Assembly: GCF_003955715.1 (NCBI RefSeq)
Contig: NZ_CP034463.1
Location: 3,472,001 to 3,536,000 of the forward strand
DNA: 64,000 nt
From: Streptomyces aquilus
GTDB lineage: Bacteria > Actinomycetota > Actinomycetes > Streptomycetales > Streptomycetaceae
Reading direction: 5' to 3'
Positions 18,352 through 41,966 of this stretch are shown here, in pieces. A program made the translations under genes and the position numbers. Each line of letters starts with the position of its first letter. The stretch's first letter is position 1. A model generated the notes under the pieces. The model saw nothing but the letters and a program-made list of their open reading frames with translations. It searched no databases and had not been told where the DNA came from.

Positions 18352-19160
18352 TGCGGCTGCGGGTGCCTCGTGGCTGGTCGCGCCCACGCGGCGGTAGCCG
18401 CATATCAGATACAGCCCCGCGCCCCTCGGGCGGCATCAAGGACCCCTCGTTCAGACGCTCGCTCACCCTTTTTCGCGCTTTCCTCCATGAGCAGGACGAC
18501 CCCGAGGCCTGCTACGCACTCCTGGCCCGCGACTCCGTCGATCAGGTCGAGGCCTACGACGGCCCCGTCGCCGGCCGGACCGTCGTCGACGTCGGGGGTG
18601 GCAGCGGGTGTTTCACCGAGGAGTTCCGGCGGCGCGGTGCCCACGCCTACCTCTTCGAGCCCGACGCGGCGGAGCTCGGGGCGAAGCCGCCCGACGGGGC
18701 CGTGATCGCCGACGGGTATCTGCTGCCGTTGTACGACGGGGTCGCGGACGTCACCTTCTCCTCCAACGTCCTCGAACACGTCGCCGATCCGCAGACCTTC
18801 GTCAGTGAGCTGGTGCGGGTGACGCGGCCCGGCGGGCTGATCTATCTGTCGTTCACCAACTGGCTGTCCCCGTGGGGTGGTCACGAGTGGGCGCCCTGGC
18901 ACTATCTGGGCGCCGAGCGGGCGCGGGCCCGTTATCGGCGCCGTACCGGCAGGGCCGCGAAGCACACCCTCGGCGAGAACCTGTTCGCCGTGCACATCGG
19001 CCCCACCCTGCGGCAGGTGCGCGCCCGTGACGACGTCAGGGTCGTCTCGGCGCGCTCCCGCTACTGGCCGTTCCTCGCCGAGACCGTGGTGAAGGCGCCC
19101 GGGATCCGTGAGGTGGCCACCTGGAACCTCCTCCTCATCCTCCGGCGGTGTCCACCATGA
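18351..19160 (+). CDS. SAM-dependent class I methyltransferase
   Basis: 269 residues from ATG 18351 (GTG 18348 also possible). The SAM motif I is VVDVGGGSGCFTEEF, with LFEPDA as the acidic ribose end and FSSNVLEHVADP as motif II/III. It probably methylates a glycan or lipid intermediate of the cluster. The first ~25 residues are Arg/Gly-rich and come from a GC-rich element that resembles intergenic repeats (see the repeat entry); no other start codon exists before the conserved region except a GTG inside the element. Its stop overlaps the next start as ATGA. Confidence 0.88.
   Translation: MRLRVPRGWSRPRGGSRISDTAPRPSGGIKDPSFRRSLTLFRAFLHEQDDPEACYALLARDSVDQVEAYDGPVAGRTVVDVGGGSGCFTEEFRRRGAHAYLFEPDAAELGAKPPDGAVIADGYLLPLYDGVADVTFSSNVLEHVADPQTFVSELVRVTRPGGLIYLSFTNWLSPWGGHEWAPWHYLGAERARARYRRRTGRAAKHTLGENLFAVHIGPTLRQVRARDDVRVVSARSRYWPFLAETVVKAPGIREVATWNLLLILRRCPP
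18357..18428. repeat. Intergenic-type repeat captured in a coding sequence
   Basis: The stretch from GGCTGCGGGTGCC to ACAGCCCCGCGCCCCT forms dyads (GCGGCGGTAGCCGC) and ends in the same CCCCGCGCCCCT found at 9102-9113. It matches a style of repeat usually seen between Streptomyces genes, but here it supplies the N-terminal codons of the methyltransferase. Confidence 0.5.
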
Positions 19161-22100
19161 CGACATCCACGGTCCAGGCCCCTCCTCCGGCCGCCGTCCC
19201 CTCCACCGCGCGCATGTCGGGCCCGCCGGAGGGCCCGCGGTCACGTCGGTGGCTGGTGGGGTTCTGGGCCGTGGTGTTCGTGCTGTTGCTGGCGGTGCAT
19301 CCGGGGCGGCAGACCTTCGACACCAAGCTGGGTGTGACCGTCGACCCGGGGCGGTTCTTCGACGATCTCGGGCAGCTGTGGCAGGACCAGGGGTCCTTCG
19401 GCGGGATCTCCGACCAGTACACCGGCTATCTGTGGCCGATGCTGCCGTTCTACTGGCTGGCCGACGCCGTACGGCTGCCGGTGTGGCTGGCGGAGCGGCT
19501 GTGGCTGTCGCTGATCGTGTCGGTCGCCTTCTGGGGCGCGCTGCGGCTCGCGGAGCGGCTGCGGGTCGGGAGCCCGTCCTCCCGGCTGCTCGCCGCGCTC
19601 GCGTACGCCCTGTGGCCGGTCTTCACCATCGTCATCGGGTCGACGTCCGCCGCCGCGCTGCCCGGCGCGTTCCTGCCCTGGGTGCTGCTGCCGTTGACGG
19701 ACGAGCGGTACAGCGCGCGGGTCGCCGCCGTGCGGTCGGTGCTGGTCGTCCCCTTCATGGGCGGGGTGAACGCGGCCGCCACCCTCGCCTCGCTGCTGCC
19801 GGTCGGCTTGTATCTGCTCACCCGGTCCCCCGGCCCCCGGCAGAGAAAGCTGCTCGCCTGGTGGATATCCGGGGTGGTCCTGGCGACCGCCTGGTGGTGG
19901 ATCCCGCTGCTGCTGCTCGGCGTCTACGGGGAGAACTTCCTGCCGTACGTCGAGAGCGCGCAGACCACCACCGAGACCATGTCGGCGACGGAGGCGCTGC
20001 GCGGCGCCGGGAACTGGGTCGCCTATCTGCACTTCGGTGAGGCGTGGCTGCCGGCCGGGTGGACGGTCGCGTCGTCGGTGATCGTGATCGTGTGCTCGGC
20101 GCTGGCCGCCGGGCTCGGGCTCGCGGGCCTGGCGCGACGGGATCTGCCGGAGCGGCGCTGGCTGACGCTGACGGTGATCGTGGCCGCGCTGATCCTGCTC
20201 GCCGGGTACGGCGGCGGGTTCGGGGCGCCCTTCCACGGGGTCGTCCGGGACTGGCTGAACGGGGGGCTCGCGCCCTTCCGGAACATCTACAAGTTCCAGA
20301 CGGGGCTCGCGCTGGCCCTGGTGCTGGGGCTCGCCCATCTCGTCGGGGTCGCCGCCGAGACACGCGGGGCGCGGCCGGTGCGGGGGCGGCGGTTCGCCCC
20401 GCTGGTCGCCGCCGTGCTGATCCTGCCGGGTCTGATGTGGCCGTATCTCAACGGGTCGATCCTGAACCCGGGTTCCTTCCAGGAGATCCCCAAGTACTGG
20501 AAGTCGACGGCGACTTGGCTGGAGAAGTTCTCCCCCGACTCCCGTGCGCTCGTCGTCCCGGCGACCGCGCACGGCATCTACACCTGGGGCTCGACCATCG
20601 ACCAGCCCCTCGACGTGGTCGCCAAGTCCCGCTGGGCGCAACGCGATTACGTCCCGTTCGGCACGGCCGGCAACCGGCGGGCCATGGACGCCGTGGAGGA
20701 CGCCCTGACCAGCGGGGGTGAAGTCCCCGGGCTCGCGGACTTCCTGGCCCGCTCCGGCATCCGGTACGTCGTCGTCCGCAACGACCTCGACCCCGACCAG
20801 ATCGGCTATGTGCCGACGACCGTCGTCAAGCGGACCCTGGAGCAGTCCGGGTACAAGCGGGTCATCGGCTACGGGCCGATCATGACCGGCGGCCGGATCG
20901 TGCACGACGCGCCGCTCGCCGTCGAGGGGCTGTACCCCAGGCAGCGGGCGGTGGAGATCTACATGCCGCCCGACGGCACCCCGAACCCCGGGCACGCCGG
21001 ACTGCTGCCGGTCGCGGACACCGCCACCGTCTCCGGCGGCCCCGAGTCGCTGCTGCCGCTGGCCGCCGAGCTGCGCGGCCGGGCGACGGTCCTGACCGGC
21101 GACAACCACCCCGGGCTCGGCACGCCCCCGCTCCAGATCACCGGCGACGGACTGCGCCGCGCCGACACCCGCTTCGGCCTGGTCAACTCCAACACGTCGT
21201 ACACGTACACCAGTGGCGAGCGCAACGCGCCGGACGCCTCCGAGGACGCCGGGGAGAAACCGCACCAGATCCTGCCGGCCAAGGGCCTCGACCATCAGAC
21301 GGTCGCCCAACTGCGCGGCGCGAGCTCGGTGACGGCGTCCTCGTACGGCAACTGGCTGTTCCACCTCCCGCAGTTCGACCCCGTCAACGCCTTCGACGGC
21401 AACCCCGACACCGCGTGGGTGGAGGGCTCGCTGGGCTCGGCGGACGGGCAGTGGCTGCGGATCGGGTTCACGGACGACGCGTACGACATGCCGTCGTCGT
21501 TCAAGGTGACGCCGTTGCCGCAGGAGAGCGTGCGCGCGGCACCGACCGAGGTGCGGGTGGAGACCGAGAACGGCTCGCGGACCAGCTTCCTGCGCCCCGA
21601 CGGCATGACGCAGAGCGTCAAGGCGCCGACCGGGCCGACGAGTTGGATGAAGCTGACCATCCTCGACTCCGTCGAACGCCGCTCCGGGCTGCTGGGCGCG
21701 GGCTTCTCCGAGATCGACCTGCCGGACGTCCAGGTGACCCGACTCCTCCGGCTGCCCACCGACGCCGAGGACACCGACGCGGGCGCGGACCTCATCTCCC
21801 TGCACCGGGCGGCCGACGGCACGGAGGCCGGCCTGCACCGCCGCTTCTCGACGGCCACGGCGGGGACGTACGAGGTGAAGGCGAGCGCGACCACCGTGCC
21901 GGGCACGGAGCTCGACAAGCTGCTGTACGAGGTCGCCCCCGACCAGGACAACCGCATCGTCGCCACCGCCGACTCCACCGCCGCCCTCGGCACCGGCCTG
22001 TCGGCCCGCAACCTCACCGACGGCGACCTGACCACGGCGTGGATCGCGGGCGACCGCCCCACCATCCATCTCGGCTGGGACGGAAAACAGCCGGTCAGCG

Positions 22101-23320
22101 AACTGGTCCTGGCCCCCGCCGGAGGCCTCGCGACCCGCCCCACCCAGGTCGCCATCAGCTCCCCCGACGGCTCGACGACCGCCGGAGTCGACGAGAACGG
22201 CTGGGTCCGCTTCCCGGCCATCACCACCGACCGCCTCGACATCACCATCACCGAGACGGCCCCGGTCACCCTCTACAACCCGGTCGTCGACGAGAACCTG
22301 CGCCTCCCGGTGGGCCTGACCGAGGCCTACATCCCGTCCCTCGACCAGTACCGCACGCCCCAGCCGCGCGACACCCGGAAGTTCTCCTTGCCGTGCGGCG
22401 AGGGACCGGTGGTCTCGGTGGACGGCGAGCTGTACCGGACGAGCGTGAAGGGCACGGTGGCGGACCTGCGCGAGCGCCGCCCGGTGTCGGTGACGCTCTG
22501 CCAGGAAGGACGCCCGGACTCGGAGTTGGAGCTGTCGGCCGGCGCTCACCGCGTGGAGGGCGGCGACGCCGGACCCCTGACCCTCACCGACCTGACCCTG
22601 ACCCGCGGGACCGTCACCGAACCCACCCCGGCGGGCCGCGACCTGAAGATCGACGACTGGCTCGGCGACCGCCGCGAGGTCACGGTCGGCTCGGGCGCGG
22701 CCACCTACCTGACGACGTACGAGAACTACAACGACGGCTGGAAGGCCACGCTGAACGGCAAGGAACTGTCGTCGGTACGGCTCGACGGCTGGCAGCAGGG
22801 CTGGCGCATCCCGGCCGGGGCCGGCGGCGCGGTCAAGCTGTCGTACGAACCGGCGGTGACCTACGACGGCGCCCTCATCGGCAGCGGTGTGGCGCTGCTG
22901 CTCCTGCTGGGCCTCGCCCTGTGGCGGCGCCGCGCCCCCAACCCCGACGAGCCACAGCCGGTGGCGCCGCCGCCGGGGCTGTGGCTGGGGACGGTCGCGC
23001 TGACGGTGGTGGGCGTGGTGATCGCCGGCTGGTTCGCCCTGCTCGTCCCGGCGCTGGCCCTGCTCGCCCACCGACGCCGTGCGTGGCTCGTCCCGATCGC
23101 GTTCGCGGCCCTCGCGGGGGCGGGGATCGCGGCGGCGACGGGTGCGGGCGAGCCGGTGGCCGCGGGCGAGGGGGCGTTCGGGCGGGCGGCCCAACTGCTG
23201 GCGCTGATCGGGTTGTTCGCGGCGGTGGTGAGCGTGCGCGAACCGGACGACGAGTCGGATGGCGAGTCGGAGGCGCCGACCCGGGTGCTGCCCAGGGTCG
23301 AGGGGGGAGAGAAGGCGTGA
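19157..23320 (+). CDS. AftD-like alpha-(1->3)-arabinofuranosyltransferase, giant membrane protein
   Basis: 1387 residues; ATG 19157 overlaps the preceding stop (ATGA). Residues ~35-430 hold about ten or more membrane spans of a GT-C fold; early acidic residues sit in FDTKLGVTVDPGRFFDDL, where GT-C enzymes place catalytic Asp/Glu. A ~800-residue extracytoplasmic part follows with two F5/8-type-C-like carbohydrate-binding regions (around FDGNPDTAWVEG and LTDGDLTTAWIAG), and then C-terminal spans (~1238-1345). Mycobacterial AftD uses decaprenyl-phosphoryl-arabinose to build arabinan; Streptomyces lacks mycolyl-arabinogalactan, so the acceptor here must be another surface polymer. It is the core enzyme of the cluster. 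Confidence 0.9.
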   Translation: MTTSTVQAPPPAAVPSTARMSGPPEGPRSRRWLVGFWAVVFVLLLAVHPGRQTFDTKLGVTVDPGRFFDDLGQLWQDQGSFGGISDQYTGYLWPMLPFYWLADAVRLPVWLAERLWLSLIVSVAFWGALRLAERLRVGSPSSRLLAALAYALWPVFTIVIGSTSAAALPGAFLPWVLLPLTDERYSARVAAVRSVLVVPFMGGVNAAATLASLLPVGLYLLTRSPGPRQRKLLAWWISGVVLATAWWWIPLLLLGVYGENFLPYVESAQTTTETMSATEALRGAGNWVAYLHFGEAWLPAGWTVASSVIVIVCSALAAGLGLAGLARRDLPERRWLTLTVIVAALILLAGYGGGFGAPFHGVVRDWLNGGLAPFRNIYKFQTGLALALVLGLAHLVGVAAETRGARPVRGRRFAPLVAAVLILPGLMWPYLNGSILNPGSFQEIPKYWKSTATWLEKFSPDSRALVVPATAHGIYTWGSTIDQPLDVVAKSRWAQRDYVPFGTAGNRRAMDAVEDALTSGGEVPGLADFLARSGIRYVVVRNDLDPDQIGYVPTTVVKRTLEQSGYKRVIGYGPIMTGGRIVHDAPLAVEGLYPRQRAVEIYMPPDGTPNPGHAGLLPVADTATVSGGPESLLPLAAELRGRATVLTGDNHPGLGTPPLQITGDGLRRADTRFGLVNSNTSYTYTSGERNAPDASEDAGEKPHQILPAKGLDHQTVAQLRGASSVTASSYGNWLFHLPQFDPVNAFDGNPDTAWVEGSLGSADGQWLRIGFTDDAYDMPSSFKVTPLPQESVRAAPTEVRVETENGSRTSFLRPDGMTQSVKAPTGPTSWMKLTILDSVERRSGLLGAGFSEIDLPDVQVTRLLRLPTDAEDTDAGADLISLHRAADGTEAGLHRRFSTATAGTYEVKASATTVPGTELDKLLYEVAPDQDNRIVATADSTAALGTGLSARNLTDGDLTTAWIAGDRPTIHLGWDGKQPVSELVLAPAGGLATRPTQVAISSPDGSTTAGVDENGWVRFPAITTDRLDITITETAPVTLYNPVVDENLRLPVGLTEAYIPSLDQYRTPQPRDTRKFSLPCGEGPVVSVDGELYRTSVKGTVADLRERRPVSVTLCQEGRPDSELELSAGAHRVEGGDAGPLTLTDLTLTRGTVTEPTPAGRDLKIDDWLGDRREVTVGSGAATYLTTYENYNDGWKATLNGKELSSVRLDGWQQGWRIPAGAGGAVKLSYEPAVTYDGALIGSGVALLLLLGLALWRRRAPNPDEPQPVAPPPGLWLGTVALTVVGVVIAGWFALLVPALALLAHRRRAWLVPIAFAALAGAGIAAATGAGEPVAAGEGAFGRAAQLLALIGLFAAVVSVREPDDESDGESEAPTRVLPRVEGGEKA

Positions 23321-30661: not shown

Positions 30662-32110
30662 GTGTCCTCTCTCTTCCCGGCCCTGACCGGCGACCGGACC
30701 GACCGACCCGCGCTGCGGTTCGGCGATCGTTCCCTGACGTACGGCGAGCTCGCCGCCGCCACCGCCGCCCTCGCGGGACGGATCGGCGGCGCGGGCAGAG
30801 TGGCCGTCTGGGCGACGCCGACGCTGGAGACCGCGGTGGCGGTGGTGGCGGCACTGGAGGCCGGTGTGGCCGCCGTACCGCTCAACCCCAGGTCCGGCGA
30901 GAAGGAACTCGGGCACATCCTGTCCGACAGCACACCGACGCTGGCCCTGGCGGCACCCGGCGACGAACTCCCGCCTCCCCTGCGGGACTTGGCGCGCATG
31001 GACGTCGTGCCGCGGACGACCGAGGGCGGCGCCCTCCTCGACACCGACGTGTCCGCCGAGTCCCCCGCCCTGATCGTCTACACCTCCGGCACCACCGGCC
31101 CGCCCAAGGGGGCCGTCATCCCCCGGCGGGCCGTCACGTCGACCCTGGACGCGCTCGCCGACGCCTGGCGGTGGACCGGCGAGGACGTGCTCGTGCACGG
31201 GCTGCCGCTGTTCCATGTGCACGGTCTCGTGCTGGGCACCCTCGGCCCGCTGCGGCGCGGCGGTTCGGTGCGCCACCTGGGCCGCTTCTCCACGGAGGGC
31301 GTGGCGCGGGAGCTGAACGACGGCGCGACCATGCTGTTCGGGGTGCCGACGATGTACCACCGCATCGCCCAAGTCCTCCCCGAGGACCCGGAGTTGGTGA
31401 AGGCGCTATCCGGAGCCCGCCTCCTGGTCTCCGGCTCCGCCGCCCTCCCGGTGCACGACCACGAGCGCATCACGGCCGCGACGGGCCGGCGGGTGATCGA
31501 GCGGTACGGCATGACGGAGACGCTGATGAACACCAGTGTGCGCGCGGACGGGGAGCCGCGCGCGGGCACCGTCGGCGTACCGCTGCCGGGCGTGGAGCTG
31601 CGGCTGGTGGAGGAGGACGGGACGCCGCTCACGTCGTACGACGGCGAGACGGTGGGCGAGATCCAGGTGCGCGGGACGAACCTGTTCACGGAGTACCTCA
31701 ACCGTCCCGACGCGACGGCCGCCGCGTTCACGGCGGACGGCTGGTTCCGCACCGGGGACATGGCGGTGCGTGATCCCGACGGCTACGTCCGGATCGTCGG
31801 CCGCAAGGCCACCGACCTGATCAAGAGCGGGGGTTACAAGATCGGGGCGGGCGAGATCGAGAACGCGCTGCTGGAACACCCGGGCGTGCGGGAGGCGGCC
31901 GTGACGGGTGAGCCGGACGCGGACCTGGGCGAGCGGATCGTCGCCTGGATCGTGCCGGCCGATCCTCAATCACCGCCGAAGGCAGAAGAGTTGGCGGACC
32001 ACGTCGCCCGCCGCCTCGCCCCGCACAAGCGCCCCCGCGTCGTCCACCACCTGGACGCCCTCCCCCGCAACGACATGGGGAAGATCATGAAGCGGGCCCT
32101 GCATGGCTGA
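30662..32110 (+). CDS. matB: Malonyl/methylmalonyl-CoA synthetase MatB
   Basis: 482 residues. GTG 30662 is chosen: AAGGAG sits 8 bases before, and MatB proteins begin (M/V)SSLFPAL. ANL-family motifs are complete: YTSGTTGPPKGAV (P-loop), ERYGMTETLMNTS (A5), GWFRTGDMAV, and the catalytic Lys in RNDMGKIMKR. The whole sequence closely resembles the S. coelicolor MatB I remember (SCO2444). It ligates malonate or methylmalonate to CoA with ATP, supplying extender units for polyketides and other acyl-CoA needs. It overlaps the carboxyltransferase gene by 8 bases. An in-frame upstream ATG at 30608 is less well supported. Confidence 0.95.
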   Translation: MSSLFPALTGDRTDRPALRFGDRSLTYGELAAATAALAGRIGGAGRVAVWATPTLETAVAVVAALEAGVAAVPLNPRSGEKELGHILSDSTPTLALAAPGDELPPPLRDLARMDVVPRTTEGGALLDTDVSAESPALIVYTSGTTGPPKGAVIPRRAVTSTLDALADAWRWTGEDVLVHGLPLFHVHGLVLGTLGPLRRGGSVRHLGRFSTEGVARELNDGATMLFGVPTMYHRIAQVLPEDPELVKALSGARLLVSGSAALPVHDHERITAATGRRVIERYGMTETLMNTSVRADGEPRAGTVGVPLPGVELRLVEEDGTPLTSYDGETVGEIQVRGTNLFTEYLNRPDATAAAFTADGWFRTGDMAVRDPDGYVRIVGRKATDLIKSGGYKIGAGEIENALLEHPGVREAAVTGEPDADLGERIVAWIVPADPQSPPKAEELADHVARRLAPHKRPRVVHHLDALPRNDMGKIMKRALHG

Positions 32111-33431
32111 GCGCCTCTCCGCCCGCGCCGCCCTCGCCCTCGTCACCGACGAGTCCACCTTCACCGAACTCCCCGCCCCCAGCGGCGAGTTCCCGCCCGA
32201 CGGGCCGCTCGGCTGGCAGGGCTACGACGCCTCGCGCGCCCGCGCCGCCGAGCGCACCGGGGAGCAGGAGTCGGTCGTGTGCGGCACGGGGCGGGTGGAG
32301 GGCACCCGGGCCGTGCTGATCGCCTTCGAGTTCGGCTTCCTGGGCGGCTCGCTCGGCGTCCGCACCGGTGACCGGCTGGAGGCGGCGTACGCGTACGCCC
32401 GCGAACACCGGCTTCCGGTCGTCCCGTTGGTGGCCACGGGCGGCAGCCGGATGCAGGAGGGCATGCTCGCGCTCACCCAGCTCCAGCGGGTGGCACGCCA
32501 GTCGGCGCTCACGCGGGAGGCGGGCCTTGCGCAGATCGCCGTCCTGCGCGACCCGACGACCGGCGGCGGCTGGGCCACCCTCGGCGCCGGCGCCGACGTC
32601 ACCCTCGCCCTGCCCGGCGCCCAGGTCGGCTTCGCCGGTTCCCGGGTCCGTCCGGCCGACGCGGAGCCTGCGGCGTACACGGCGGAGGCGCAGTTCGCGG
32701 CGGGGGCGGTGGACGCGGTCGTGCGCCCCGGCGAGCTGCGCGGGGTGCTGGGGCGGTGGCTGCGGCTGCTGACGCGGCCGAGCGGCGCCCCGGCCCCGGT
32801 GCCCGCCCCGCTCGGCGCGCCGGACCCGCCCGCGACCGGCTGGGAGGCGGTGAGCCGAGCCCGTTCCCCACAACGCCCGCGTGCGGCAGCCTACTTGGAC
32901 GCCTACTTCACGCACCGCCTGCCGCTCTCCGGCGACCGCTGCGGCGGCGTGGACCCCGGCATGCTCTGCGGTTTCGGCGAGCGGGAGGGCCGGACGATCG
33001 CGTACGCGGCGCAGGACGGGACGGCGACCCGGCCGGCCGGTTACCGCACGGCGACCCGGCTGATCCAGCTGGCGGACCGGCTCGGCATCCCCGTGCTGAC
33101 GCTGGTGGACACGCCGGGCGCCGCCAACGACGCGGAGGCCGAACGGCAGGGCGTCGGCGCGGCGATCGCGGACCTGTTCCTGACGGTCGCCGCCGCCCGC
33201 ACCCCGGTCACCACGCTCCTCATCGGCGAGGGCGGCTCCGGCGGCGCCCTGGCCCTCGCGCCCCCCGGCAACACCTGGGCCACACCGGACAGCTACTTCT
33301 CGGTGATCGCCCCGGAACTCGCCGCGGCGATCCTGAAGCGACCGGCGACGGAGATCCGGCCGACGGCGGAACAACTCCGGCTCCGTCCGCAGGACTTGGC
33401 GGAACTGGGGGTGATCCGCGAGGACCGGTGA
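32103..33431 (+). CDS. Acyl-CoA carboxylase carboxyltransferase (fused AccD/AccA-like halves)
   Basis: 442 residues with two crotonase-fold halves. The N-half resembles the beta part (VCGTGRVEGTRAVLIAFEFGFLGGSLG, TGGSRMQEGML, FAGSRV). The C-half resembles the alpha part (RLADRLGIPVLTLVDTPGA..., EGGSGGALALA). Such enzymes transfer the carboxyl group from biotin to acetyl- or propionyl-CoA. The partner biotin-carboxylase subunit is not in the window. Coupling to matB (8-base overlap) suggests both serve malonyl-CoA supply. The C-terminal ADPQ-like zinc region of bacterial AccD is absent, as is usual for the fused form. Confidence 0.88.
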   Translation: MAERLSARAALALVTDESTFTELPAPSGEFPPDGPLGWQGYDASRARAAERTGEQESVVCGTGRVEGTRAVLIAFEFGFLGGSLGVRTGDRLEAAYAYAREHRLPVVPLVATGGSRMQEGMLALTQLQRVARQSALTREAGLAQIAVLRDPTTGGGWATLGAGADVTLALPGAQVGFAGSRVRPADAEPAAYTAEAQFAAGAVDAVVRPGELRGVLGRWLRLLTRPSGAPAPVPAPLGAPDPPATGWEAVSRARSPQRPRAAAYLDAYFTHRLPLSGDRCGGVDPGMLCGFGEREGRTIAYAAQDGTATRPAGYRTATRLIQLADRLGIPVLTLVDTPGAANDAEAERQGVGAAIADLFLTVAAARTPVTTLLIGEGGSGGALALAPPGNTWATPDSYFSVIAPELAAAILKRPATEIRPTAEQLRLRPQDLAELGVIREDR

Positions 33432-33534: not shown

Positions 33535-33852
33535 ATGGATGGCGTGATCGAGTTCAAGACCGGTGACGGTGCGGTGGTCGCGGTGGAGGCCGCCGACGAC
33601 GGGGCGGGCTCGCGCCTGGTCTCGCGGGACGGGACCGTCCAGGCGGCCCGCACGTTCGAGGCCGCGCTCGACGGGGTCCGCTCGGCGGCCGAGGCGGCGC
33701 TCCGGGTGTTCCGCGAGGGCGCGCTCCAACCGGACGGTGTGGAGATCGAGTTCGGGGTGAAGCTGGCCGCCGAGTCGGGCGCGATCATCGCGAAGGGGTC
33801 GGCCGAGGGCCATCTCGTGGTCAAGCTGACCTGGACCCCCTCACGTTCATGA
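33535..33852 (+). CDS. Trypco1-like (trypsin co-occurring, CU044_2847-type) small protein
   Basis: A 105-residue beta-rich protein without membrane or signal sequences: IEFKTGDGAVVAVEA at the start and, near the end, VEIEFGVKLAAESGAIIAKGS, which is the conserved core of the Trypco1 domain. Such small proteins occur beside trypsin-like proteases in predicted conflict systems and may occupy or present substrate to the protease. GGGGG lies just before the ATG. It is coupled to the trypsin-VMAP gene by an ATGA overlap, so the two proteins are likely made in equal amounts and work together. Confidence 0.82.
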   Translation: MDGVIEFKTGDGAVVAVEAADDGAGSRLVSRDGTVQAARTFEAALDGVRSAAEAALRVFREGALQPDGVEIEFGVKLAAESGAIIAKGSAEGHLVVKLTWTPSRS

Positions 33853-35543
33853 CCGGCGCCGCGTGGCAGGCCCGCATCGAGCGCGCGGGCCAGATCGCCG
33901 GGGCGGGGTTCCTGGTGACCCACGACCGGGTGCTGACCTGCGCGCACGTGGTCCCGGAGGAGAACGGCGGCCAGGCCGCGGTCACCGTGTCCTTCCCGCA
34001 GCTCCCCGGCTCCGCCCCGGTCCCGGCCCGGGTGGTGGCGCGCGGCGCCTGGGGCGGGCACCCCAGCGACCTGGGCGATCTCGCCGTCCTGGAGCTGGCG
34101 GCGGAGGTGTCGATCACCCCGGCCGCCCTCGCCCCGGCGGACACCGCGCACGGCGACCGCAAGCTCATCGCGTACGGCTTCCCGAGGGGCTACGACGAGG
34201 GCCAGCTCGCCGAGTACCGCACCACGGGGCCGGTCCGGGTCGGCGGTGAGTGGATCCAGCTGGAGGCGTGGAGCGGCCATGGACAGCCGCTGGTCGCGGG
34301 GTTCAGCGGGGCGGCCGTGGTCCTCGTGGAGACCGGCGAGGTCGTCGGCATGGTCACGGCGGCGGCCGGCGCCCGGGACATCCGCACCGGCCGGATGCTG
34401 CCCACCGACGTGTTCGCCCGCCACTGCGCCGAGTTGGAGGGCCTGGTCCCGACCGCAGGGCGCCCGCTCGCCGCCCGGCGCCGGCTGAGAAGACTGGTGG
34501 AGAAGGCCGTACGGACCGGACTGGTCTGCGATCCGGTACGGCTGTACGCCGACGCGGCGGACGAGCTCGCCCCCGCCCCGCCGCGGGGCGGCTTCGACTC
34601 GCTGTGGTCGGCGGCCCTGTTCGTGCAGGCCGAGTTGGACGACCCGGACACGGTGACCCGCTTCGCCGACCGGCTGGACGCCCTGCTGCACCCGCCCGCC
34701 GCCCCGCCGAGCGGTACCGGCTCGACCGGCCCGGCCTGGGAGCCGATCCTCGTCGAGCTCCGCCACAGCGGCGCCGGCGAGGACCACGTCCAGGTGGAGG
34801 TCTCGGCCTACAGCGGGGAACGCCGGCACCCGGTCGCCTCCGACACCGTTCCGCTGGCGGGCCTGCACGGCTATCTCCAGGACCGGATCGACGCGGCGTT
34901 CAGTCATCTCACCCCGGGCGGCGACGAGCTGATCGCCTTCTCACTCCCCCGGGACTGGCTGGACTGGCCGGTGGACCGCTGGGCGTGCGCGCCCGGCGAC
35001 GCCCCGCTCGGCTGCGCCTACCCGGTCGTCGTCACCGACCACACCCGCCGCGGCCGCGGCACCCGCCACGTGCTGACCCGCACCTGGAACCGGCTCGGCG
35101 CCAGCACCGGCCAGGTGCACCGCGTCACCTGCGACTCCCCGGAGAAGCCGGGCGAACTCCGTCTCGCCCTGCGCCGGAACGGCACCTGCCTGACCGGCTT
35201 CGCCGCCGTCCCGGACGCCGCGCTCACCCGCGAGCACTTCAAGAACTCGCTCACCGCGCCCGCCCCGGTGATCGTCTGGTCCCGCCGCGGCTGCGGCGGC
35301 ACCGGAGCCGGGACCGACGGATGCCGTGACACCTGCCCCGGTGCGGCGTTCCTCGACGCGCTCGACACCCACGTACGGCATGTCCCACCCGCCGAACTCC
35401 CGCGCCACGTCCTGGCGTTGCGCGACGAGGCGGACTCCCGGGACGACCACTGGGCGCGGGACATCCAGCTGCTGTGGGACGACCCGCGCTGCTTCAAGGA
35501 CCGGCACGAGGGCGCGGCCCATGTACACACCCCCGTAGCGTGA
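33849..35543 (+). CDS. Trypsin-like protease fused to a VMAP C-terminal domain
   Basis: 564 residues. The N-terminal ~195 residues are a trypsin-fold protease with a complete triad: H33 in TCAHV, D77 in GDLAVLEL and S153 in GFSGAAV. There is no signal peptide, so it acts in the cytosol. A middle region (~200-290, including RLYADAADELAP) is followed by the VMAP C-terminal domain (~300-560) with LIAFSLPRDWLDWPVDRWA, APVIVWSRR and the final DIQLLWDDPRCF. VMAP proteins are the third partner of MoxR-vWA conflict systems described by Aravind and colleagues. Here the protease is the apparent effector. The MoxR gene follows after 9 bases. Confidence 0.85.
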   Translation: MTGAAWQARIERAGQIAGAGFLVTHDRVLTCAHVVPEENGGQAAVTVSFPQLPGSAPVPARVVARGAWGGHPSDLGDLAVLELAAEVSITPAALAPADTAHGDRKLIAYGFPRGYDEGQLAEYRTTGPVRVGGEWIQLEAWSGHGQPLVAGFSGAAVVLVETGEVVGMVTAAAGARDIRTGRMLPTDVFARHCAELEGLVPTAGRPLAARRRLRRLVEKAVRTGLVCDPVRLYADAADELAPAPPRGGFDSLWSAALFVQAELDDPDTVTRFADRLDALLHPPAAPPSGTGSTGPAWEPILVELRHSGAGEDHVQVEVSAYSGERRHPVASDTVPLAGLHGYLQDRIDAAFSHLTPGGDELIAFSLPRDWLDWPVDRWACAPGDAPLGCAYPVVVTDHTRRGRGTRHVLTRTWNRLGASTGQVHRVTCDSPEKPGELRLALRRNGTCLTGFAAVPDAALTREHFKNSLTAPAPVIVWSRRGCGGTGAGTDGCRDTCPGAAFLDALDTHVRHVPPAELPRHVLALRDEADSRDDHWARDIQLLWDDPRCFKDRHEGAAHVHTPVA

Positions 35544-35552
35544 GGACTGCCG

Positions 35553-36572
35553 ATGCCGAAGTCGAACTGGTCCGTCTACACCGGCGACAGCGAGCCGCAC
35601 GACGGCATCACCGGCCTGCCCGCGCCGCCGCCGTGGCGGGCCTTCGACGGCGGCCCGGCGCTGCCGCCGCCCGCCGAGGACGACGACGAGGCGGCCGTCT
35701 CCCCGGACCGCGTGCACCGCGCCCGCACCTACGTGGCCACCCCCGAGAGCGTCCAGCTCGTCAACGCGGCCCTGTGTCTGCGCCGCCCGCTGCTGGTCAC
35801 GGGCCCGCCCGGCACCGGCAAGTCCTCGCTGGCCTACGCGGTGGCGCGCGAGCTGCGCCTCGGCCCGGTCCTGCGCTGGAACATCACCAGCCGCAGCACC
35901 CTCGCCGACGGCCTCTACCAGTACGACCCGCTCTCCCGCCTCTACGCGGCCCGCCCCGGCGGCGGCCCCCGCGCCCACGGCGGCGTCGAGGACCATCTGC
36001 GCCTGGGCCCCCTGGGCACGGCCCTGCTCCCCTACGACCGTCCCCGCACCCTCCTGGTCGACGAGATGGACAAGAGCGACCTCGACCTGCCGAACGACCT
36101 GCTGAACGTCCTGGAGGAGGGCCAGTTCGAGATCCCCGAACTGGTCCGCGCGGCCCGCCACACGCCCGACGCCACGGCCGAGGTCCTCGCGGACGGCACG
36201 GACACCCCGGTGACCGTGCACCGCGGCCGGGTCCGCTGCCGCGCCTTCCCCTTCGTCGTCCTCACCAGCAATGGCGAACGCGAGTTCCCGCCCGCCTTCC
36301 TGCGCCGCTGCGTCCGCCTGAAACTCCGCCGACCGGGCCGCGAGCAGCTGACGGACATCGTCCGCGCCCATCTCGGCGCCCCGGACGACCGGATGCGGGC
36401 CCTGATCAAGACCTTCCTGGACCGCGCGAACAGCGGCGAACTCGCCACGGACCAGCTCCTGAACGCGATCTACCTCACGGGCGTGGCGGGCCTGGACGCG
36501 GACTCCCGGGACGCGCTCGCCGAACAGCTGATGCCGTACCTGAGCGCGACGGCGGACGGCGATGGCTTCTGA
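35553..36572 (+). CDS. MoxR-type AAA+ ATPase
   Basis: 339 residues. After ~60 low-complexity acidic/Pro residues comes an AAA+ core: Walker A GPPGTGKS (G84-S91), Walker B LLVDEMDK (D170, E171), sensor 1 LTSNGEREF, and the arginine finger region PAFLRRCVRL. The insert with SRSTLADGLYQYDPLSRLY is typical of MoxR ATPases paired with vWA proteins. All catalytic residues are present. MoxR rings act as chaperones or switches for vWA partners. Its gene overlaps the large vWA-like gene by 11 bases. Confidence 0.93.
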   Translation: MPKSNWSVYTGDSEPHDGITGLPAPPPWRAFDGGPALPPPAEDDDEAAVSPDRVHRARTYVATPESVQLVNAALCLRRPLLVTGPPGTGKSSLAYAVARELRLGPVLRWNITSRSTLADGLYQYDPLSRLYAARPGGGPRAHGGVEDHLRLGPLGTALLPYDRPRTLLVDEMDKSDLDLPNDLLNVLEEGQFEIPELVRAARHTPDATAEVLADGTDTPVTVHRGRVRCRAFPFVVLTSNGEREFPPAFLRRCVRLKLRRPGREQLTDIVRAHLGAPDDRMRALIKTFLDRANSGELATDQLLNAIYLTGVAGLDADSRDALAEQLMPYLSATADGDGF

Positions 36573-39500
36573 GGAAGCCGGGGGGCTGTTGGCGCGGCTG
36601 ACCCGAATCCTCGGCGAGGCGTCGTCGGCCGAGGACGGGCCGACGACACGCGAACTGGCCGAACTGTTGTGGCTGGCCCAGGGGTTGGGGAACGGGGAGG
36701 ATCACGAGGTCGCCGACCGGACCGTCACGGCCACTCCGGCGCGGGAGACACCACCAGCAGCGACGGCCGCACACCCGGAGCCTCCGGCCCCTCTGCCGGA
36801 GCCCCCACTCCCCCAGGAAGCCGAAGACAACCGGGTCCCCCTACGGCTCCCACCCGCGCGATCCGCCCCGGCGAGCCGCCCCCTCCTCGCCCCCGCACCG
36901 CCGATGCTGCACCACCCGCTCGCCCTGCAACGGGCGTTGCGCCCCCTGAAGCGACGGGTCCCGGCCCCCCGCCGCAAGATCCTCGACGAGACGGCCACCG
37001 CCGACCGCATCGCACGCCTGGGCGCGCACGCGGACGTCTGGCTGCCGGTCCTGCGCCCCGCCCCGGACCGCTGGCTGCACCTGAACCTGGTGTGCGACGC
37101 GGGCCCCACGATGCCGATCTGGCGTCCTTTGGTCCGCGAACTCCACACGATCCTGGCCCAGTCGGGCGTCTTCCGCACGGTCACCCTGCACCGGGCGACC
37201 CCGGACGGCCGCGCCCACGGGGTGCCGGTGGCGGCGGACGGCCGTACGGTCACGCTCGTCGTCAGCGACTGCATGGGCCCGCAGTGGCGGCCGGGCCCGG
37301 CGGGCGACCGCTGGTACCGCACGCTGCGCCGCTGGGCGCACGGGATGCCGCTGGCAGTCCTCCAGCCACTGCCCGAACTCCTGTGGCACACAACGGCGTT
37401 GCCCGCCGCCCCGGGCCTGCTGACGGCCCCGTCCCCGGCGGCGCCGTCGTCCCTCCTCACCTTCACCCCGTACGCCCCGGACACCGCACCCCCACCGCCA
37501 CCGTCCGGCGCGCTGCCCCTGCCCGTCCTCGAACCGGGGCCGACCTGGCTCGCCAACTGGTCGTCCCTGGTGGCCGATCCGGGCGGCGGACGGGTGCCGG
37601 GCGCGGTGGCGTGGCTGGGCCGGAGCCCGGTGGCACCGGTGGAGTCGACGGCCCCCGACATCGCGTCGCTGCCGCCCCGCGACCTGGTCCTGCACTTCCG
37701 CTCCACCGCGTCCCCGGAGGCGTTCCGCCTGGCGGGCCATCTGTCGCTGGCGGTCCCCTCCCTCCCCGTCATGCGGCTCGTCCAGCGCGTCCTGGACCAC
37801 CGGCCGCGCCCGCAGCACCTGGCCGAGGTGATCCTCAGCGGGATGCTGACGACGGTTCCGGGGCCGCCGGGGTCGTACGAGTTCCGGCCGGGGGTGCGGG
37901 ACCTGTTGCAGCGGACCTTGCCCCGCACGGCTCGTGGCCGGACGCGTGAATTCCTGGCGCGGGTGGGCGGGTTGATCGACGAGCGGGCGGGGCTGGCGGC
38001 GGGTGAGTTCAGGGCGGAGGCGGGGGACGCGGGGGCGGCGTTCGCGACGGTGCGGGAGGAGACGGTACGGCGGCTCGGGGGTGGCGCCGAGGTGGCGGGG
38101 GTGCTGCTCGGGGGGCGGTATCGGGTGGTCGGCGAGCGGGGGGCGCAGGAGTGGGAGGCGGTGGACACGCGGGTCGAACGGCTGGTGCTGGTCCGCGAGT
38201 ACGCGGAGCAGCCGGCCGGAGCGGAGATCTTCCTCATGCAGGCGGAAGTCCTGGGCCGCCTGCGGCATCCGAACGTCGCGCCGGTCGTGGACTGGTGGGT
38301 GGAGGGGACCCGGCCCTATCTGGCGACCGAGTGCGTGGACGGCGTCACGGTCACCGAGCTGGAGCGGGGCAGCGGGCCGGGGGTGTCCACGAAGGTGCTC
38401 GACCGGATACGGCAGGGTGTGGAATCAGGGCTGTCCGCCCTGCACGAACACCGCCTGATGCGGGGCGGCGAGGGCTGGGACGGCGTGCTGCTACGGCCGG
38501 ACGGAACGGCCGTGATCAGCCGCTTCACCCTCGGCCGTCAGTCAATACGGCACAGCGCCCGGACCGACGTGCGAGCGTTCCAGGTCCTGCTGGACGACCT
38601 GGCCGCACGCCGCAGCCCGTACTCCGAGCCCCTACGGGTCGGCATGCTCGGCCCGCTGCGCCTCAACCGCGGCCCGATCCGGTCCCTGGAGGCACAGGCC
38701 ATGCTGTGCGTGCTGCTCCTCGAACAGGGCCGTCGACTGAGCGTCGCCGAACTGGCCCGATGCATCTGGGACGAGCCTCCTCAGGACGCCTCAGCAGCCC
38801 TCGGCGACCTCGCCCAGGAGCTACGGAACCGCCTCGGCCCCGGCACCCTCGCCCAACTGCCGGACGGCTACGCCCTTCACCCACCGGACATCGTGGTCGA
38901 CGTACTCGGCTGCGAGGAGATCCTGGCCGCCGGGCCCAACCGCACCGAGGCCCAGCGGGCCTTGAACCTCTGGTACGGCGACGAACCGCTCGCCGGTATC
39001 CCCGGACCTGTCGCCCGGACAGCCCGCGCCCGCATCAACGACCTCCGCCGCGCCCTCTCGGCCTGCGCCGCCCGGCCCATCATCACGTTCGAGATCCTGG
39101 GCGCCGACGACCCCCACGCACACGCCGTCCTCGGCCAGTCGGTGAACGGCCTGCTGGCCCGCGGCAACCTCCAGCCCTACGACTACGACGTCCGGACCCG
39201 CGACAACGGATTCGCCGTCGTCACCGAGCCGGCCGCCTACCTGCTGCCACTCCTGGTCGCCGTACTGCGGGGCCTGCCCGAGGAACTCGACGCGCTGCCC
39301 GACGCGCCACGGGTCATGGTGACGTTCTGGGACACCACGGCCTCCCCGCCACCGGACACACGAGGCCTCCTGGAGCAGACGGACGCGGACGTGACCATCC
39401 TGATCACCCCACGCCTCTACGAGGAGTACGCCGATAGCTCGGCCGCCCCGGGCGCGGGCCGCTTCGAACCACTGCGGACGGGCACGGATCCCGAACCCGT

Positions 39501-40731
39501 CGCCTGGTACTGCCCCCTGCGCCTCCCCTCGGCCGAGCCGGACGCCGAGCCCCGCGACCTGGTGCGCGGCCCCTTCACCACCTGGGTCGCCCACGAGCTC
39601 ACCCCCGACCCGAACCGCACCGCTCTCGTCTTCGCTCCCTCGGGCGGCCAGCTCACCCTGACCCCTCCGTCCACCACCCGCGGCCGCCCCGTCCGGTACT
39701 ACGAGGTGGACCTGACCATCCACCGGACCACCCACCACGTCACCCTCCCCAGTTCCGGCCGCCGCGGCTTCCCCGCCGAGATCGACCTGTCCTGGCATGT
39801 CGCCGGCCCGATGGCCTTCATCCTCGGCGAGGTCACCAACGTCCGCGAGATCCTCCTCGACCACGTCCTCAGGGAGGCCGGCCGCGTCACCCGCCGCCAC
39901 CGCCTCGCCCCGACCCAACAGGCTCTGTACGCCGGCCTGCGCGAGTGGCCCATCCCCGGCCTCTCCGTCAGCTGCTCGGTACGGCTGCTCCCGGCGCCGG
40001 ACCCGGCACCCGCCGCCCCGCAGACCCGGCGCGCCTCGTCCGACGACCCCCTCACCGCCCACCTCCGCGCGACCGAGACCGTCCTGATCGGCCTGGACGG
40101 CCCTCTCACCCGCCTGTTCACGACGAAGTCCGCCCGCGCCGCCGCCCTGGAGCTGATCTCGCTGGCGGTCGAGAACCGCGACCCCGAGGAGGCCCTGCAA
40201 GGGCACCCCCTCGACTCCGCCCTCAACACTCCCGCGCACCCCATGGAGGTGCTGCGGGCCTTCGCGACCGCCTCCGTCGGCCCGACGCTGCGCGGGCGGC
40301 TCGACGACCTCGAACTGCGGGCCGTGCCCCACACCCACCCCACCCCGGACGCCCACGCCCTCATCCGCGCCCTGACCGAGTCCGGCCGCCGGGTGGAGGT
40401 GGTGACGGACGTCTGCGAGCAGGCCGCTCAACGCGTGGTGTCCCACCACAGCCTCCCCCTGACCGGCGTCCACGGCCGCAGCGACGACCTCGCCCTGCTG
40501 ATGCCGAACCCGGACTGCCTGCTCCGCGCCCTCGCCCGCACCGGCCGCCCCTCCGCCACCGGCCTGCTGATCAGCTCCTCCACCGCAGAACTCGACGCCG
40601 CCTCCCGCCTCGGCCTCCGCGTCATCGCCTTCGCCGACATCCCCGCCACGGCCCGGCGCCTCCGGGAGACGGGACACGACAGGCCCCTCTCCTCCCTGGA
40701 ACCCCTCCTCGACGCGGCCCGCACGCTGTGA
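36562..40731 (+). CDS. Giant SAV_2336/vWA-like, pseudokinase, winged-helix/BTAD, HAD protein
   Basis: 1389 residues. In order: an Ala/Pro-rich N-terminus; a SAV_2336-type region (~150-500) with a vWA-like strand LNLVCDAGPTM (D179, a DxGxT MIDAS variant) and VVSDCMGPQW; a kinase-like domain (~515-680, GGRYRVVGERG, LRHPNVAPVVDWW) lacking HRD and DFG, so a pseudokinase; a SARP-type winged helix plus BTAD (~691-838, VGMLGPLRL); a possible degenerate nucleotide-cyclase-like segment (~850-1010, ending LITPRLYEEYADSS); a possible SPFH-like segment (~1060-1160); and a HAD fold (~1172-1389, IGLDGPLT) in which the nucleophile Asp is Gly. No obvious enzyme activity remains, so it is likely a sensor-scaffold for the MoxR/VMAP operon. 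The domains after BTAD are tentative. Confidence 0.8.
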   Translation: MASEEAGGLLARLTRILGEASSAEDGPTTRELAELLWLAQGLGNGEDHEVADRTVTATPARETPPAATAAHPEPPAPLPEPPLPQEAEDNRVPLRLPPARSAPASRPLLAPAPPMLHHPLALQRALRPLKRRVPAPRRKILDETATADRIARLGAHADVWLPVLRPAPDRWLHLNLVCDAGPTMPIWRPLVRELHTILAQSGVFRTVTLHRATPDGRAHGVPVAADGRTVTLVVSDCMGPQWRPGPAGDRWYRTLRRWAHGMPLAVLQPLPELLWHTTALPAAPGLLTAPSPAAPSSLLTFTPYAPDTAPPPPPSGALPLPVLEPGPTWLANWSSLVADPGGGRVPGAVAWLGRSPVAPVESTAPDIASLPPRDLVLHFRSTASPEAFRLAGHLSLAVPSLPVMRLVQRVLDHRPRPQHLAEVILSGMLTTVPGPPGSYEFRPGVRDLLQRTLPRTARGRTREFLARVGGLIDERAGLAAGEFRAEAGDAGAAFATVREETVRRLGGGAEVAGVLLGGRYRVVGERGAQEWEAVDTRVERLVLVREYAEQPAGAEIFLMQAEVLGRLRHPNVAPVVDWWVEGTRPYLATECVDGVTVTELERGSGPGVSTKVLDRIRQGVESGLSALHEHRLMRGGEGWDGVLLRPDGTAVISRFTLGRQSIRHSARTDVRAFQVLLDDLAARRSPYSEPLRVGMLGPLRLNRGPIRSLEAQAMLCVLLLEQGRRLSVAELARCIWDEPPQDASAALGDLAQELRNRLGPGTLAQLPDGYALHPPDIVVDVLGCEEILAAGPNRTEAQRALNLWYGDEPLAGIPGPVARTARARINDLRRALSACAARPIITFEILGADDPHAHAVLGQSVNGLLARGNLQPYDYDVRTRDNGFAVVTEPAAYLLPLLVAVLRGLPEELDALPDAPRVMVTFWDTTASPPPDTRGLLEQTDADVTILITPRLYEEYADSSAAPGAGRFEPLRTGTDPEPVAWYCPLRLPSAEPDAEPRDLVRGPFTTWVAHELTPDPNRTALVFAPSGGQLTLTPPSTTRGRPVRYYEVDLTIHRTTHHVTLPSSGRRGFPAEIDLSWHVAGPMAFILGEVTNVREILLDHVLREAGRVTRRHRLAPTQQALYAGLREWPIPGLSVSCSVRLLPAPDPAPAAPQTRRASSDDPLTAHLRATETVLIGLDGPLTRLFTTKSARAAALELISLAVENRDPEEALQGHPLDSALNTPAHPMEVLRAFATASVGPTLRGRLDDLELRAVPHTHPTPDAHALIRALTESGRRVEVVTDVCEQAAQRVVSHHSLPLTGVHGRSDDLALLMPNPDCLLRALARTGRPSATGLLISSSTAELDAASRLGLRVIAFADIPATARRLRETGHDRPLSSLEPLLDAARTL

Positions 40732-40928: not shown

Positions 40929-41966
40929 ATGACCGCCAGTCTGGAGCAGCTGCGCCGCTGCCACTTCGCCGTCGACCTGGGCGCGGCGAGGACGCGGGTG
41001 TACGTGAAGGGCGCCGGGCTCGTCGTCGACCAGCCGTCCGTCGCCGCCGTCAACACCCGCACCGGCGCACTGATCGCGGTCGGCGACTTCGCGGAGAAGA
41101 TGACGGGCCGTACCCCCGACTACATCCGTGTCGTGCGGCCCGTCTCCGGCGGCACGGTCGTCGACATCGAGATGGCGCAGCGCATGCTGCGGCACCTGCT
41201 CGGCGACAAGATCCGCCGCTCGCTGCGCCGCAAGCCGATCCTGCGCGCCGCCGCCTGCACCCCGCACGACGCGGACCCGCTCGCCCAGCGCGCCGCCATC
41301 GAGACCCTGGTCGGCCTCGGCGCCCGCCGCGTGGAGCTGGTGGACACCCTCATCGCCGCCGCCGTGGGCTGCGGACTGCCCGTGGAGCGGCCCGAGGCGA
41401 CCATGGTGCTGGTCTGCGGCGCGGCGGCCACCCAGGTCGCCGTGCTCTCCCTCGGCTCGATCGTGAACGCCGTCCGTATCCCGGTCGGCGGCGAGGCCGT
41501 GGACCACGCGATCGTCCAGCACCTGCGCCACCAGCACGAGCTGATGCTGCCGAGCCAGTCCGTACGACCGCTCCAGCTCGCCCTGTCCGGCAACGGTCTC
41601 ACCGCGTCCGGCCCCGCCTCCACCGAGATCCACGGCCGTGACGTCGCCACCGGTCTCGCCCGCTCCGTGCAGGTCGACACCGCCGCCGTCCGCGACGCGA
41701 TCCAGACCCCGCTCACCGCCGTCCTCGACGGCATCGGCAAGGTGCTGCGGGACTGCCCGCCGGACCTGGTGGCCGACCTCGCCGACCGCGGCATCATGAT
41801 GGTCGGCGGCAGCGCCCTGCTCCCCGGCTTCGACCAGATGCTGCGCCAGGCGACCGGCATGCCGGTGCACATCGCGGAGCGCCCCGAGGTGTGCGCGGTG
41901 GAGGGCCTGGGCGCGATGCTGGAGGGCCGTATCGAGCCGCTGGCGCTGGACCCGATCACCGACTGA
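40929..41966 (+). CDS. mbl: MreB-like actin homologue (Mbl type)
   Basis: 345 residues; GGGAGGA 6 bases before ATG. Actin fold: phosphate 1 FAVDLGAARTRVYVKG, the interdomain RTPDYIRVVRPVSGGTVVDIEMAQRML typical of MreB, phosphate 2 TMVLVCGAAATQVAVLSLG, and the adenosine region GIMMVGGSALLPGFDQML. Bacterial MreB uses DIGGGTT at phosphate 2; here it is CGAAATQ, losing the Gly-Gly-Thr, as in the divergent Mbl of S. coelicolor (SCO2451, which I recall as sporulation-related). ATP use is therefore uncertain. It probably takes part in spore-wall synthesis. The kinase-like gene follows after 9 bases. Confidence 0.87.
   Translation: MTASLEQLRRCHFAVDLGAARTRVYVKGAGLVVDQPSVAAVNTRTGALIAVGDFAEKMTGRTPDYIRVVRPVSGGTVVDIEMAQRMLRHLLGDKIRRSLRRKPILRAAACTPHDADPLAQRAAIETLVGLGARRVELVDTLIAAAVGCGLPVERPEATMVLVCGAAATQVAVLSLGSIVNAVRIPVGGEAVDHAIVQHLRHQHELMLPSQSVRPLQLALSGNGLTASGPASTEIHGRDVATGLARSVQVDTAAVRDAIQTPLTAVLDGIGKVLRDCPPDLVADLADRGIMMVGGSALLPGFDQMLRQATGMPVHIAERPEVCAVEGLGAMLEGRIEPLALDPITD

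Follow-up and report, generated by a model that had tools for sequence, protein, structure and literature searches.

A well-supported VMAP ternary operon with a trypsin-type protease and a variable vWA-protein tail in Streptomyces aquilus

VMAP ternary systems were defined computationally by Kaur, Burroughs, Iyer and Aravind (Kaur et al., 2020; PMC7159879), whose account sets out their gene order, the Trypco1 partner and the characteristic motifs of the MoxR ATPase. The parts of that account that concern us here describe such systems as common across multicellular bacteria, with components that also occur in immune and cell-death circuits; VMAP is proposed to be the sensor, and proteolysis would free effectors from the tail of the vWA protein. 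They also distinguish 29 versions of VMAP middle domains and note that vWA proteins, whose lengths peak near 850, 1125, 1300 and 1450 residues, carry tails that differ between close organisms. The components of such tails include inactive S/T kinases, with the kinase often coupled to a winged helix-turn-helix (wHTH), and a derived, probably inactive HAD. Doré et al. (2024; PMC10907252) propose the reverse polarity, and vWA-MoxR-VMAP genes have been placed near type III CRISPR loci (Altae-Tran et al., 2023; PMC10910872). The conflict function of VMAP systems is presented as a prediction in the relevant sections of both Kaur et al. and Doré et al., and a search of the open literature at abstract level found no experiment on such a system.

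Here we analysed a window of 64,000 nucleotides (positions 3,472,001-3,536,000 of the 10.4-Mb single-contig genome of S. aquilus), in which four genes follow each other closely on one strand (Table 1). According to the ORF list, the Trypco1 and VMAP genes overlap by 4 bases, a gap of 9 bases precedes the MoxR gene, and the MoxR and vWA genes overlap by 11 bases. Coordinates and spacings are those given by an earlier sequence-only reading, which had proposed a MoxR-vWA-VMAP conflict-type system with a trypsin VMAP and Trypco1. Profiles, gene order and a predicted vWA fold support this proposal: Trypco1, VMAP-C, MoxR-type AAA+ and SAV_2336 models were each matched in Pfam or NCBIfam, and membership of the operon in the VMAP ternary family is well supported at the level of sequence. 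A promoter and terminator scan returned 0 and 0 candidates, with 0.1 and 1.0 expected in shuffles.

Table 1. Features of the operon and its surroundings, in positions of the window
Feature	Position	Strand	Evidence
Protein with TerD domain, 748 aa	10888-13134	+	3.2e-47; no other Pfam match at 1e-5
Large AftD-type arabinofuranosyltransferase-like protein	19148-23320	+	PF11847 1.7e-223
Acyl-CoA-carboxylase-like gene, upstream neighbour	32103-33431
Trypco1 (trypsin-co-occurring domain 1) protein, 105 aa	33535..33852	+	PF19493 3.3e-26; NF041216 2.8e-23
VMAP, trypsin-like N-terminus and VMAP-C C-terminus, 564 aa	33849..35543	+	Trypsin_2 4.8e-17; VMAP-C 2.0e-41
VMAP residues 18-168: trypsin-like peptidase domain	33900..34352	+	PF13365, best stretch
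VMAP residues 312-546: VMAP-C domain	34782..35486	+	PF20028, best stretch, full profile 1-226
MoxR-type AAA+ ATPase, 339 aa	35553..36572	+	AAA_5 5.0e-8
vWA component, SAV_2336 type, 1389 aa	36562..40731	+	NF041121 1.9e-128
vWA protein residues 1-508: N-terminal helix, linker, predicted vWA fold, helical C-extension	36562..38085	+
vWA protein residues 509-685: pseudokinase	38086..38616	+	Pkinase 0.001 (weak, Pfam); PknB-like 3.7e-8 (NCBIfam)
vWA protein residues 686-837: AfsR-like winged helix and BTAD	38617..39072	+	NF053617 8.3e-18 over 682-832
vWA protein residues 838-990: alpha/beta domain, possibly degenerate nucleotide cyclase	39073..39531	+	AF2 model
vWA protein residues 1000-1150: beta-rich then helical domain, possibly Band 7/SPFH	39559..40011	+	AF2 model
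vWA protein residues 1163-1389: HAD fold without nucleophilic Asp	40048..40728	+	weak HAD match, 0.019
MreB/Mbl-type actin gene, directly downstream	about 40929-41966	+	PF06723 7.2e-109

The VMAP protein belongs to the trypsin subtype, with PF13365 at its N-terminus and a PF19493 Trypco1 gene as its neighbour. VMAP-C, the profile whose lack had been named beforehand as a possible refutation, is present at the C-terminus over its full length with 142.8 bits (cut-off 27), and the region between the two domains gave no Pfam match at E 1. Conservation was scored in 85 rows besides the window, with identical sequences merged; they include a short ORF of one locus (L120) that is maybe not a VMAP, and the MoxR rows include the second MoxR of the host. 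The protease triad (H33, D77, S153) is kept in 84 of the 85 rows, the exception being a contig fragment. Near its N-terminus, the MoxR protein reads W6-S-V-Y-T-G11 (WSVYTG) and P26-P-W-R-A-F31 (PPWRAF), in agreement with the motifs WxhapG and PsWRxa that define VMAP ternary MoxR proteins in the pertinent section of Kaur et al. (2020); W6 is kept in 81, Y9 in 84, and both G11 and R29 in all of the 85 rows. The ATPase motifs are similarly constant (Walker A K90, 84/85; Walker B D170 and E171, 85/85; R251 and R252, 85/85), which together with the AAA_5 match marks a MoxR-type AAA+ protein whose arginine finger is probably R251 or R252.

The order of the four genes is not a product of chance, because 64 of the 80 named loci that were fetched keep all four, 62 of them as separate ORFs in the same order and on the same strand; the expectation that the genes would be conserved together is thus borne out. 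VMAP, MoxR and vWA follow each other 5' to 3' in the window and in these same 62 of 64 complete loci. The named relatives are labelled Streptomyces in 78 cases, with one Kitasatospora and one Actinobacteria bacterium, and the 16 loci without one to three of the genes often stop at the end of a contig or of the stored stretch. In two loci, L090 (6835-10008) and L091 (6284-9556), VMAP and MoxR share a single open frame, which looks like a fusion unless it stems from a sequencing error. With starts set by a nearest-start rule, the 4-base overlap recurs in 53 of 63 scored loci and the 11-base overlap in 44 of 62; the gap between VMAP and MoxR varies among loci.

Among the matches listed for 119 genomes of the order, SAV_2336_NTERM occurs in 84, Trypco1 in 87 and VMAP-C in 86, of which 83 exceed the cut-off. 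Of the 150 SAV_2336 rows listed, 148 were counted, the other two being fragments of frames that the count already included. In 132 of the 148, VMAP-C lies upstream on the same strand within 6 kb, the median spacing of 1265 nt corresponding to a single MoxR gene, and in 76 Trypco1 lies within 8 kb; at least some of the 16 rows without upstream VMAP-C stand at contig ends. Conversely, SAV_2336 is downstream of 136 of 146 listed VMAP-C rows (150 less the four weakest, with four genes giving two rows each). Only 76 of all 150 listed Trypco1 rows have SAV_2336 downstream, and Trypco1 therefore serves elsewhere too. In four loci (L066, L069, L070, L074), which form one group with an SH-aLRT support of 98, Trypco1 has no tblastn match and the triad is kept. 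We had considered Trypco1 as an obligatory inhibitor of the trypsin; because these loci retain the protease residues without it, such a role appears unlikely from the sequences.

The fourth gene encodes a giant protein that matches SAV_2336_NTERM (NF041121) over residues 29-477. The sequence-only reading had placed this protein in the vWA position as a substitute for the usual partner. The position stands, and the substitution does not: the model indicates that the protein contains a vWA domain rather than replacing the vWA component, with a predicted vWA fold (residues 90-345) in which two metal-site Asp, at the ends of strands 1 and 4, are invariant in 64 of 64 aligned sequences. Its structural vWA score is Z 9.2, only 1-2 above unrelated rows; Foldseek alone gave no vWA match at E 0.001, Pfam vWA models gave none among the 64 members, and VWA_CoxE appeared weakly, below its cut-off, in two of the 15 paralogues scanned. 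The N-terminus also holds a conserved E31-x-x-E34-x-x-W37, whose spacing differs from the printed [D/E]xxx[D/E]xxx-aromatic motif. Behind the vWA part lies a multi-domain tail of a kinase-like domain, a wHTH-BTAD, two further domains and a HAD, and paralogues have other tails. The pseudokinase, winged helix-BTAD and HAD that had been named earlier were all matched, kinase and HAD weakly. They do not make the vWA partner unusual, as had been thought, since inactive kinases, kinase-wHTH coupling and a derived HAD figure already among the vWA components described by Kaur et al. (2020). At the expected catalytic loop and DFG positions of the kinase part, placed by our own judgement, no Asp is conserved at 90%, and the nucleophile position of the HAD is Gly in 59 of 59 sequences; judged by these residues, the recognisable tail enzymes look dead.

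The two domains between BTAD and HAD were barely probed by structure search, where HAD rows filled the match lists of the tail. For residues 838-1150, Pfam gave no cyclase or Band 7 match among 59 members, and a PDB profile search returned TAL-repeat and other chance-like rows for 838-990 and no rows for 1000-1150. When profiles were compared with those of 13 cyclase and 17 Band 7 proteins of the host and related genomes, nothing significant emerged; residues 1000-1150 came closest, to Band 7, with P 0.019 across 83 columns. A cyclase (838-990) and a Band 7 domain (1000-1150), suggested by architectures in Kaur et al. (2020) and by our own reading of the sequence, are conceivable identities that Pfam, PDB-profile and profile-profile comparison did not support.

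How does the giant protein vary? Compared with its relatives, it breaks at about residues 508, 685 and 837. Of 95 distinct proteins, counting that of the window, 13 lack residues 509-836, a cassette made up of the pseudokinase and the wHTH-BTAD, and one more lacks the kinase alone. On a quick tree of the vWA part, many of whose forks are weak, the cassette takes 9 changes (8 without three broken-frame rows), each of them a gain or a loss. In a close pair, cassette-less L088 and cassette-bearing L050, DNA identity is 90% before and 94% after the cassette, the site itself measuring 23 nt in the former and 1064 nt in the latter. Going by this pattern, the pseudokinase-wHTH cassette is dispensable. 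Median pairwise identity, taken over 35 of the 37 rows in the window's clade, is 87% for the MoxR AAA domain, 85% for Trypco1, 80% for the vWA fold, 73% for trypsin, 72% for VMAP-C and 68% for the VMAP middle, and it falls to 50-62% in the five tail segments. The vWA linker, at 36%, changes faster than the tail; among folded parts, the aligned sequences indicate that the tail varies most.

The operon lies between a carboxylase-like gene and an mbl-type gene, and ORFs matching these neighbours occur in 64 and 75, respectively, of the 80 named loci. SCO2451, which we take to be the mbl tag of S. coelicolor, returned no paper in a literature search. Of the 119 genomes of the order, 103 contain an mbl of at least 59% identity, and in only 29 of these 103 does SAV_2336 lie in the 15 kb upstream of it. 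The site count used these 103 mbl rows (one per genome) and 73 carboxylase rows; excluded were carboxylase rows of 16 further genomes of the genus, as well as rows with at most 42% identity, and none of the excluded rows has an mbl on its contig at 40 kb or less. In 43 genomes, the carboxylase-like gene stands upstream of mbl within 40 kb; in 24 more the two genes lie within 20 kb of each other in a different arrangement, the carboxylase-like gene not preceding mbl on the mbl strand. Between the two genes, 26 of the 43 (host included) hold Trypco1, VMAP-C and SAV_2336, one (G073) holds a SAV_2336 piece only, and 16 have no SAV_2336 match. Fourteen regions were inspected, namely 13 of these 16 and G073: five (G006, G043, G105, G001, G073) contain operon pieces, and the other nine have flanks only, or short matches of at most 56 nt. 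Because 26 of the 43 sites are filled and five inspected regions hold pieces, the window's subfamily has a preferred site at which it also decays, SAV_2336 genes in general being found at many places. Operon remnants at the carboxylase-mbl site, seen in L168, L169, L170, L171 and L172, comprise anything from a stretch of Trypco1 alone up to parts of the vWA gene. The operon was also considered as a mobile insertion; the flanks match in filled and empty sites, and the decayed pieces fit an eroding resident better than transposition.

The host has a second system at about 1.455 Mb (L010, 1,448,000-1,467,999), composed of a DUF4062-VMAP-C protein, a MoxR and a vWA-TIR-NB-ARC-TPR protein. Twenty paralogous loci were fetched, and in 15 of them the vWA protein was scanned with Pfam: six of these tails have NB-ARC with TPR; TIR, CHAT, and a cold-shock domain together with a trypsin domain occur in one each; and four of the 15 proteins matched no family at E 0.01. 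NB-ARC/TPR, TIR and CHAT are domains of immune proteins, and such tails, like that of the host's second system, speak for a conflict role. The window also encodes an AftD-type protein and, elsewhere, a protein with a TerD domain (Table 1). TerD domains are also found in VMAP ternary systems, in the part of Kaur et al. (2020) that touches on them.

How might such an operon act? That it both belongs to this family and works in conflict as an ATP-gated protease switch is, taken jointly, fairly probable, and a cytoplasmic switch of this kind against invaders such as phages is the most likely function to be read from the sequences. We envision a scenario whereby an invader protein binds the tail, in which the pseudokinase, the wHTH-BTAD and the dead HAD would be baits mimicking cell proteins. 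Binding would alter what the vWA domain holds, MoxR would hydrolyse ATP and remodel the complex, and the VMAP trypsin, for which Trypco1 would be an optional partner, would be released to cut host, invader or vWA-tail proteins, the outcome being growth halt or cell death. The sequence-only reading had likewise let the giant protein sense and the protease be the output. Our data lean weakly in this direction, one of two published proposals, because the protease and ATPase motifs are clearly intact and the tail is the most variable folded part. The dispensable pseudokinase-wHTH cassette and a vWA linker that changes even faster than the tail weigh against it, and sensing by the tail seems to us about evenly balanced. 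In the opposite polarity, published by Kaur et al. (2020), the VMAP middle senses, MoxR-vWA remodels and the trypsin frees decoy or dominant-negative effectors from the tail. We consider this a serious possibility that falls somewhat short of an even chance: inactive-looking tail enzymes are what is expected of decoys, and the tail modules come and go as cassettes, but the expected sensor is not the fast-changing part (VMAP middle 68%, versus 73% for trypsin, 72% for VMAP-C and 50-62% for the tail). Decoy cargo would give the same pattern of an intact core and a variable tail, and a fast-changing tail fits the cargo or decoy effectors of Kaur et al. as well as it fits sensors.

The genomic position brings in a quite different explanation, in which the operon would regulate housekeeping or development, Mbl-dependent wall building for example, with MoxR-vWA loading or remodelling a complex and the protease serving quality control. 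The operon does sit just upstream of an mbl-type actin gene, as in 26 of the 43 site genomes, and known MoxR-vWA pairs do assembly tasks, as Kaur et al. (2020) relate. Nevertheless, 16 of the 43 sites lack SAV_2336, five of the 14 inspected regions hold decayed pieces, mbl occurs in 103 of 119 genomes with SAV_2336 close upstream in only 29, and further copies of the system stand at other positions, the host's second one among them; such a regulator is unlikely. A more elaborate version of the tail-as-sensor reading, in which the vWA protein is a swappable bait array whose kinase, AfsR-type regulator and phosphatase mimics are gained and lost as cassettes behind a constant ATPase-protease core, an invader protein attacking one of the mimicked cell functions triggers the protease and, given the position beside mbl, the actin-like cytoskeleton is among the guarded targets, is in our estimation highly doubtful. 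Finally, a PADLOC scan of the operon produced partial, weak matches only. Hits to bpMoxR (6.9e-5), MadB_ATPase (3.6e-20) and a mad6 kinase-like stretch (3.5e-7) might point to a beta-propeller ternary (bpMoxR) or MADS anti-phage system, yet bpMoxR scores 22.5 bits against a cut-off of 27, MadB 72.3 against 475 and MAD6 18.7 against 460, and no beta-propeller matched in the proteins scanned, so that this assignment is barely credible.

What is new here is the count of cassette presence and absence on a tree, four loci that have lost Trypco1 but keep the protease, and a chromosomal site with remnants, flanked by two conserved genes. With natural variants of this kind (pairs differing by one cassette, Trypco1-less loci with the protease, and empty sites), the two published signalling directions could be told apart with little engineering.

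Among described systems, the trypsin VMAP, MoxR and vWA components recur in the DGR-linked systems of Thiohalocapsa PB-PSB1, together with Trypco1 at some loci; the distinguishing feature of those, in the sections of Doré et al. (2024) that describe them, is the diversification of vWA C-type-lectin domains by a retroelement. The systems adjacent to type III CRISPR have the same three-part core, and the CRISPR linkage, as outlined in the passage of Altae-Tran et al. (2023) on these genes, is their own feature. The NorQ-NorD pair of MoxR and vWA proteins is, in brief descriptions of it, a metal-insertion chaperone without a VMAP protease. Closest by far is the VMAP ternary system of Kaur et al. 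(2020) itself. Measured against the core description in that paper, the window operon shares the order VMAP-MoxR-vWA, the trypsin VMAP with Trypco1, the MoxR motifs, the two-Asp vWA, tails of inactive kinase, wHTH and HAD, the presence of several systems per genome and the occurrence in Streptomyces, and it differs in nothing of kind.
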